Below are positions 24,366 to 25,484 of a stretch of 64,000 nucleotides of DNA, piece after piece; position 1 is the stretch's first letter; each line of letters starts with the position of its first letter. The translations under genes were made by a program, and so were the position numbers. Under the pieces are notes generated by a model. It did no database searches, was not told the origin of the DNA, and saw nothing but the letters and a program-made list of their open reading frames with translations. The stretch comes from Methylotenera versatilis 79 (GTDB lineage: Bacteria > Pseudomonadota > Gammaproteobacteria > Burkholderiales > Methylophilaceae), in assembly GCF_000384375.1 (NCBI RefSeq), contig NZ_ARVX01000001.1, positions 496,001 through 560,000 on the forward strand, in the 5' to 3' direction.

Positions 24366-24393
24366 AAAAAGCCGACTAAATAGTCGGCTTTTT
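24366..24393 (-). terminator. Rho-independent terminator after hps
   Basis: GCCGACT (24371-24377) and AGTCGGC (24382-24388) form a 7-bp GC-rich stem with a 4-nt loop, flanked by A5 and T5, so it extends into an A-T stem and ends in a U-run on the minus strand. It begins 35 nt after the hps stop and separates hps from hisB. Confidence 0.85.
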
Positions 24394-24427: not shown

Positions 24428-25312
24428 TTACTGAGCCGCAGCTGGCGCTGCTTCTGCTGGAGCAGTTTCAGCTGGTGCTTCTGGAGCCGCTTCAACTGGT
24501 GCAGCTTCTTCAACTGCAGCTGGTGCTTCAGCCGCTGGAGCCACTTCTTCAACAACTGGCGCGTCAACTGGCGCTTCTTGAGCTGGTTTATTACCAGTTA
24601 ATAGATATAAACCTAAAAGTACTGCACCTGCGATTAATGCCCATGGTAAGTATTTACCAAGACCACCAGCTGCAGCTGAGTTGCCACGTGCTAAGCCTGA
24701 AATTTCAGCAGCTGAAGCTGCTGGATCTGCTGCGCCATAGATTGCTGCACCAGCAACCACGATATCAGCACCTGCATCAACTACTTGGCGAACTGTTGCC
24801 GCTTTAACACCGCCAGCAACAGAAACTTTAGCGCCGGTGTTTAAACCAGTAATCAAAGCCAAATCAGCAAAAGGTGTTTGACCAGCTGCTTGTTGATCTA
24901 AACCAGTGTGAACACCAATGATGTGCGCGCCTAATTTTGCGACTTCTTTAGTACGTGCCACTTTGTCTGTTACGTTAATCAAGTCAACTTGTGCTTGTTT
25001 ACCATATTTATTAGCAACATCAATTACACCCTTGATAGTACCAAGATCAGCAGTACCAAGAACAGTAACGATGTCTGCGCCGGCTTTGTAGAATGGCTCA
25101 GCTTCGTAGAAACCAGCATCCATTGTTTTCAAGTCAACTAAGATTTTGTTGTTTGGAAATTTTGCACGCAATGTTTTTAATAATTCAATACCATTGTGTT
25201 TAATGCAAGGTGTACCGATTTCTAAGATATCTACGTGTGGTGCTACTTTAGTTGCCAATGCAACTGTTGCGTCAAAATCTAATGAATCTAATGCCATCTG
25301 GGTTTGTGCCAT
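24428..25312 (-). CDS. hps: 3-hexulose-6-phosphate synthase with C-terminal membrane helix and Ala/Pro/Glu-rich tail
   Basis: Residues 1-207 form a complete hexulose-phosphate synthase of the OMPDC superfamily, the RuMP-cycle enzyme joining formaldehyde to ribulose 5-phosphate. Key motifs are LEIGTPCIKHNG (30-41), the D-x-K-x-x-D motif DLKTMDAG (60-67) and VSVAGGVK. Unlike the usual ~210-residue enzyme, it continues with a Gly/Ala linker, one hydrophobic helix (about 221-239) and a 54-residue tail of mainly Ala, Pro, Glu and Val. Lys220 before the helix suggests a cytoplasmic enzyme with an exported tail. GGAGG precedes the ATG. No hexuloisomerase gene is adjacent. The enzyme call is firm; the extension's role is unknown. 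Confidence 0.92.
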   Translation of the reverse strand: MAQTQMALDSLDFDATVALATKVAPHVDILEIGTPCIKHNGIELLKTLRAKFPNNKILVDLKTMDAGFYEAEPFYKAGADIVTVLGTADLGTIKGVIDVANKYGKQAQVDLINVTDKVARTKEVAKLGAHIIGVHTGLDQQAAGQTPFADLALITGLNTGAKVSVAGGVKAATVRQVVDAGADIVVAGAAIYGAADPAASAAEISGLARGNSAAAGGLGKYLPWALIAGAVLLGLYLLTGNKPAQEAPVDAPVVEEVAPAAEAPAAVEEAAPVEAAPEAPAETAPAEAAPAAAQ

Positions 25313-25454
25313 GGTGCCTATTCCTCCGAGCTCGCTAATAATTTAAAAGGGTTCGATAAAATTATTTGATTAAAAAATTAATATTCTGTAGTTATTTTGT
25401 TTTAATTCAAAGTAATTTTACAAAATACTATTTGCACATTTTGTACATTTCGAC

Positions 25455-25484
25455 ATCATAACCGCAATTGATTCAATATTTCAA
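25455..25484 (-). promoter_or_regulatory. Candidate sigma-70 promoter of hps
   Basis: On the minus strand TTGAAA (25479-25484) and TATGAT (25455-25460) are separated by 18 nt, each one mismatch from consensus. The predicted leader is about 135 nt of AT-rich sequence before a GGAGG Shine-Dalgarno. It would give hps its own transcription unit inside the his cluster. Confidence 0.6.

Follow-up and report, generated by a model that had tools for sequence, protein, structure and literature searches.

The hps gene of the window (the whole stretch of 64,000 nucleotides that was analysed) encodes a 3-hexulose-6-phosphate synthase (HPS) that, judging from its sequence and those of its relatives, is very probably a membrane-targeted isozyme. 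The reading that we prefer, with a probability of about 0.6, is that this enzyme is the membrane-targeted member of an HPS pair and that fixation capacity is held at the inner face of the membrane, where it would meet entering formaldehyde. The pair is kept by most sampled Methylophilaceae outside the genome-reduced genera, and in the loci examined the HPS linked to histidine biosynthesis (his) genes always has a membrane-type C-terminus. This is a variant of a known enzyme and not a new system. The two-copy arrangement with one gene in the his cluster has already been published (PMC4109929); the new element is the family-wide pattern of C-terminal tags.

The open reading frame occupies positions 24428-25312 of the minus strand, with the ATG at 25312 and the TAA at 24428-24430, and encodes 294 amino acids. 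The sequence-only reading had given the same coordinates, correctly, and had left the strand unstated. A complete HPS domain is followed by a linker, a predicted membrane helix and a disordered tail rich in alanine, glutamate and proline:

24698..25312, minus strand: HPS catalytic domain, residues 1-205 (TIGR03128, PDB 3ajx, Foldseek 3f4w)
24653..24697, minus strand: Gly/Ala/Ser linker with R209 and K220, residues 206-220 (translation)
24596..24652, minus strand: predicted transmembrane helix YLPWALIAGAVLLGLYLLT, residues 221-239 (Kyte-Doolittle, AlphaFold2)
24431..24595, minus strand: acidic Ala/Glu/Pro-rich tail, predicted to be disordered, residues 240-294 (AlphaFold2 pLDDT; 52 distinct helix-type proteins)

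The profile TIGR03128 matches residues 5-205 with 250.9 bits against a curated cut-off of 200, which bears out the earlier claim of a complete HPS domain in the first ~207 residues. The protein matches PDB entry 3ajx at the sequence level (E 9.4e-48). The best Foldseek matches are 3f4w (E 6.7e-20) and 3ajx (E 8.0e-20), with TM-scores by target length of 0.89 and 0.90, respectively, as expected for a barrel of the OMPDC/KGPDC type. The chains of these solved enzymes have 211 and 207 residues, in agreement with the size of about 210 that the sequence-only reading had given for known HPS. Residues D60, K62 and D65 are invariant among 19 aligned HPS proteins and form the Asp/Lys/Asp pattern of the active site, which we take to be D62/K64/D67 in KGPDC of E. 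coli (the offset of 2 in the numbering was derived from the PDB match ranges). The enzyme is predicted to be active in the condensation of formaldehyde with ribulose 5-phosphate.

A fusion with a second enzyme was considered and rejected. No Pfam or NCBIfam match has its best stretch extending past residue 212. The model of HPS-PHI (NF041755) scores 294.8 bits against a cut-off of 500, its best stretch ending at residue 212, the Fae-HPS model (NF009833) scores 119.2 bits against 274, its best stretch ending at residue 203, and the score of the HPS-ribonuclease regulator model (NF005442) is below the cut-off.

The most hydrophobic 19 residues of the protein are 222-240 (Kyte-Doolittle mean 1.84), and AlphaFold2 predicts a separate helix at 221-238, directly after K220. 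Thus the hydrophobic helix of ~19 residues preceded by lysine, noticed earlier, is recovered by both methods. The low-complexity tail of 54 residues is borne out too: about 54 residues follow the helix, with pLDDT below 50 at 241-289 and 291-294. In all 52 distinct helix-type proteins the mean hydropathy over 19 residues is between 1.67 and 2.66. All 52 contain LPW or LPY, which served as the anchor for aligning these rows, and glycine at position -5 from it, and 50 of them have lysine at position -2; otherwise the helix sequence varies. The tails of the 52 proteins are from 29 to 111 aa long, have a net charge from -3 to -21 and consist of 42.5% Ala, 16.8% Glu and 13.1% Pro. Several of them (L006, L010, L015, L028, L032 and others) end with a similar peptide, TDGLVGAAKDATG or its variants, the tail being otherwise variable.

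The predicted helix would be inserted into the membrane in the N-in, C-out orientation, since the enzyme needs cytosolic ribulose 5-phosphate and the frame starts directly with the enzyme domain, so that a single helix implies this topology. The tail would then be periplasmic. In many relatives positive charge is found on both sides of the helix, and thus the topology rests mainly on the need for the cytosolic substrate. If the one hydrophobic helix predicted by hydropathy and AlphaFold2 (221-239) is inserted, the protein would resemble C-tail-anchored proteins in having a single C-terminal membrane helix after a cytosolic domain. The strict definition of that class allows at most about 30 residues after the helix, and the window protein exceeds it with about 54; the tail lengths given above are 29-111 aa.

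A search of the 15 genomes of the genus does not support the helix and tail as a module common to other proteins: other matches are weak (E from 1.7e-6 to 0.026) and occur in 7 genomes. The best of these weak matches is a small lipoprotein-like frame of the same genome (L003:1495-1725) with an Ala/Pro/Glu tail, at 69% over 68 aa of low complexity; similar short frames are present in L270-L274.

The window gene is part of the his cluster and is flanked by hisC and hisB. The genome consists of one contig of 2,604,277 bases, and its tal-hps-phi cluster encodes a second HPS, between transaldolase and hexuloisomerase; this protein has 210 aa and no tail and shares 85% identity with the window protein. 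The alignment shows the same catalytic residues in both copies. The hexuloisomerase, which has to take up the HPS product, is without an anchor in the one copy seen in this genome (L002), a point against the preferred reading. In the accessible text of an earlier study, Methylophilaceae are described as having two hps genes about 90% identical, the first located in the histidine cluster, the second together with HPI and tal (PMC4109929); the window gene is the same gene as the his-cluster hps of that study, whose accessible text makes no mention of a C-terminal extension or a membrane location for it. In six operons from genera g4, g13 and g21 (L141, L144, L145, L146, L147, L151), two tail-less HPS genes precede phi. 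The additional HPS of these operons shows 66-67% identity with the window domain and clusters with the tagged copy of the same lineage.

The search across Methylophilaceae genomes that the sequence-only reading had proposed shows that the extension is kept. In at least 72 of 187 genomes of the family a match continues beyond the helix and reaches query residue 257 or a later one, and both helix and tail are present in 15 of 15 genomes of the genus. Since helix and tail recur across genus and family genomes, chance and a sequencing error or read-through of the frame were rejected. Two further helix-type genomes were found in the fetched loci, G125 (where the contig ends inside the helix) and G135.

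The orthologues of other genera have, at the same point, a different C-terminus: a short amphipathic peptide with the sequence SGGLFGWLKKLFS or one very close to it. A pattern back-translated from this peptide has a single match in each of 57 of the 187 genomes, and the reversed control has none. Comparison of coordinates with the HPS matches, together with reading of the loci, places 56 of the 57 at the 3' end of an HPS; the remaining one (G011) lies in an unrelated frame. The pattern missed six amphipathic variants (G052, G116, G118, G134, G180, G185). Genome G046 has both kinds of tag. By enumeration, a tag of either kind is present in at least 135 of 187 genomes. The 52 others include 47 that are all sampled members of two small-genome genera, g2 and g16; nine of these 47 have no HPS among the matches listed. 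The seven loci read from these genera, in six genome-reduced genomes, contain tail-less tal-hps-phi copies, and some g2 genomes have a second HPS match (the locus reading in g2 and g16 covered these seven loci in six genomes). A locus of Candidatus Methylopumilus (L100) does contain the tagged his copy. The last five genomes, G037, G076, G097, G156 and G184, are 74-91% complete and have no verified tag.

The amphipathic peptide occupies the extreme C-terminus and in 34 distinct proteins has a hydrophobic moment of 0.54-0.67 and a charge of +1 or +2; the amphipathic relatives thus end in a cationic amphipathic helix of the MinD/FtsA type. The same measure gives 0.41 and 0.61 for the peptides of MinD and FtsA, respectively. 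The moments of three typical HPS peptides are reached by 2.5-3.7% of shuffles. The confidence of AlphaFold2 for this peptide is low (pLDDT below 50). By analogy, the peptide may bind lipid in a manner resembling MinD and FtsA. Genera g4, g13 and g21 have a tagged copy with a quite different HPS domain (64-69% identical to that of the window) and the same kind of amphipathic tag. In genus g5, the fetched stretch around an amphipathic HPS (L086, L136) contains no his gene, and two frames before the HPS resemble, by eye, subunits of NAD-linked formate dehydrogenase.

The kind of C-terminus follows the locus. The 254 loci, chosen by similarity to the query proteins and thus an uneven sample, yielded 245 full-length HPS frames and 184 distinct proteins; fragments starting after residue 8 or ending before residue 195 of the reference were left out. 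The 82 distinct his-linked copies comprise 52 of the helix type and 30 of the amphipathic type, and none lacks a tag, whereas all 92 tal/phi-linked copies, other orders included, are without one. Four unlinked copies from Methylophilaceae are amphipathic. Four unlinked tagless copies and two HPS-PHI fusions all come from other orders. The membrane anchoring suggested from the window alone is well supported, as far as sequences can tell, by the different membrane-type peptide at the same point of the orthologue and by the absence of tags from the tal/phi-linked copies.

No tagged HPS was found outside Methylophilaceae in the draws of the order, the class and two other orders of the class. In the latter, HPS matches are present in 93 of 121 and 50 of 63 genomes; in none of these 143 genomes does a match extend past residue 228 of a tagged query of 237 residues, and the tag motif is absent from the fetched loci. 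Thus the tag is not needed for having HPS. In the order-level draw, HPS over the cut-off was found in 13 of 399 genomes, all of them Methylophilaceae, and the class-level draw of 369 genomes gave matches in 6, the window's own genome included.

The catalytic domains do not follow the tags. In the tree of 97 HPS domains, thinned from the 184 distinct ones and with an unsettled bootstrap, his and operon copies are interleaved. A single clade of tagged copies is rejected on the domain tree (p-AU 2.6e-8, with 30 tagged rows, 29 his-linked and one unlinked, against 26 operon rows). Within a genome the domains of the two copies are 86-96% identical, with third-position identity of 54-91% (13 of 20 pairs, the other seven having been lost to de-duplication). 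In Methylophilaceae P-RSF-NP-02 two HPS genes stand in tandem between hisC and hisB (L024, L076). The first 600 bases of the tandem copies in L024 are identical, and one copy has the helix and tail, the other the amphipathic tag. The tandem in L024 may be an assembly artefact; the same tandem is seen in L076, apparently from the same genome. These data agree best with recurrent gene conversion that affects the domain and spares the tag, and repeated duplication may be an alternative.

The tag is under purifying selection, and in the amphipathic type the constraint on the peptide matches that on the enzyme. Pooled dN/dS, from pairs that share sequences and are not independent, is 0.084 for the amphipathic peptide and 0.083 for the domain of the same proteins (154 pairs); in the helix type the values are 0.285 for the helix and 0.057 for the domain (465 pairs). 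Trees were also built from the flanking his genes, with 71 rows and, after removal of two long rows and addition of the locus with both tags, with 70; on them, 3 changes between the two tags are required. One clade comprises 52 rows, of which 47 are of the helix type and 5 amphipathic, and the remaining rows are amphipathic. In the tree of 70 rows, for which no root was inferred, the branch of L076 arises at the base of the amphipathic group, beside the one that separates the two groups. The history may have involved one gain of the helix and two returns; alternatively, there may have been an ancestral tandem like that in L076 with later losses, and L076 is placed as an ancestral tandem would join.

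Candidate transcription and translation signals surround the window gene:

25455..25484, minus strand: promoter-like element TTGAAA-N18-TATGAT, conserved in the window and 7 aligned relatives
25321..25327, minus strand: Shine-Dalgarno box GGAGGAA, conserved in the alignment of the window and 7 relatives
24366..24393, minus strand: terminator-like hairpin of 12 pairs with a T run, 3' of the gene (scan)

These three elements make it likely that the gene is a separate unit within the his cluster, and it is probably transcribed on its own. The support for the promoter-like element comes from the cross-species alignment only, as the consensus scan gave 2 sites with 3.4 expected and no excess over shuffles; the terminator scan found 1 hairpin with 1.6 expected by chance. 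The long A/T-rich leader (25313-25455 of the window, minus strand) contains the blocks TTTTGTAAAA and AAATATTA..TTTTTAAT, kept in the window and 7 relatives. The blocks conserved beyond the promoter-like element could be an operator or an RNA element; Rfam gave no matches to the leader at gathering scores.

In the proposed mechanism, the tal-hps-phi copy would supply the soluble HPS, and the his-cluster copy would have the same kind of catalytic domain with a C-terminal address tag. In the window's genus the tag would consist of one transmembrane helix and a periplasmic acidic tail, and in other genera of a short amphipathic helix that would bind the inner face peripherally, like MinD. Either tag would keep some of the capacity for formaldehyde fixation at the inner face of the cytoplasmic membrane, and formaldehyde made in the periplasm would meet HPS and ribulose 5-phosphate on entry. 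In methylotrophs formaldehyde is made outside by PQQ dehydrogenases, so that HPS at the inner face would meet it on entry; indeed, the genome contains three PQQ alcohol dehydrogenases over the family cut-off. They also speak for fixation next to the periplasmic methanol dehydrogenase, as the sequence-only reading had it, which is plausible and a fair guess. Against the link to methanol dehydrogenase as a requirement stand the HPS matches of the two other orders, none of which extends past residue 228 of the tagged query, and the tail-less loci read from the genome-reduced genomes. That the enzyme traps formaldehyde at the entry side of the membrane has, in our estimate, not quite an even chance. 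The full scenario is more tentative, with the odds against it: two spatial pools, domains mixed by gene conversion with selection holding the tag alone, a swap from the amphipathic to the transmembrane tag in one lineage, and a membrane pool intercepting formaldehyde as it crosses the inner membrane. If the two-pool part is true, this would be a spatial answer to the problem of surviving a toxic intermediate made outside the cytoplasm.

One may also assume that membrane targeting is real and serves as a scaffold, the anchored HPS recruiting enzymes of the RuMP cycle or of formaldehyde oxidation, or a partner binding the acidic tail, while the closeness to formaldehyde entry is incidental. The tail is long, acidic and variable, as a docking or spacer segment would be, several tails have a similar terminal peptide, and the unlinked amphipathic copy of L086 adjoins the two formate dehydrogenase-like frames recognised by eye. 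However, the orthologous gene with the amphipathic tag encodes no periplasmic part, which means that binding of a periplasmic partner cannot be what the two forms have in common. We consider the scaffold unlikely, although it is the strongest competitor of the inner-face reading.

Another reading, which is improbable, involves no membrane device: the enzyme would be soluble, and the peptide or helix would serve its oligomerisation, stability or regulated turnover. Some short amphipathic peptides at a C-terminus bind proteins, and the low AlphaFold2 confidence for the HPS peptide fits such a role, but the helices, hydrophobic in 52 of 52 proteins and with a lysine just before them in 50, would be hard to keep soluble. 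Moreover, one membrane-type tag has taken the place of another at the same point, which speaks for a common membrane role. Finally, the tags might be relics of an old gene fusion that persist by drift and give the enzyme no role distinct from that of the second copy. The identical catalytic residues of both copies agree with this, as do the loci of genome-reduced relatives with their tail-less copy only. This is the least probable explanation, and very improbable in itself: the amphipathic peptide is under the same degree of purifying selection as the enzyme, and the tags stay sorted between the loci (82 of 82 against 0 of 92) although the domains mix.

The RuMP cycle is entered through HPS, which is also a core component of synthetic methylotrophy designs. 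A natural membrane-addressed HPS beside a soluble one would make the effect of location on formaldehyde fixation testable. It would also help to explain why two nearly identical hps genes are retained in the family. This amounts to a natural experiment, in which a single enzyme domain occurs with either of two membrane-type tags and, within one cell, also as an untagged twin. In synthetic methylotrophy, HPS has been brought near the formaldehyde source by enzyme fusion, according to the accessible text of PMC8879981.

In the HPS literature searched, with most subscription journals outside the search, no report of a membrane-anchored or C-terminally extended HPS was found. Particulate HPS was reportedly described in Methylococcus capsulatus by Ferenci in 1974. 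The catalytic domain, fold and invariant active-site residues of the window protein are like those of the solved enzymes 3ajx and 3f4w; unlike these chains of 207-211 aa, it has 89 more residues after residue 205, with the predicted membrane helix and the acidic tail. HPS relatives are dimers, and thus each enzyme would have two tags. FtsA has a C-terminal amphipathic membrane-targeting sequence, and the amphipathic type of HPS, with its short helix at the extreme C-terminus, resembles it. The same likeness holds for MinD; according to the accessible text of PMC6803595, its targeting helix is weak and becomes effective once at least two copies are present. ATP switches the membrane binding of MinD, whereas HPS is not known to have a nucleotide switch, and no homology is claimed. 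Like the HPS-PHI, Fae-HPS and HPS-ribonuclease regulator fusions, the window protein has an HPS domain with additional sequence; unlike them, its added part is a non-enzymatic, membrane-type segment.
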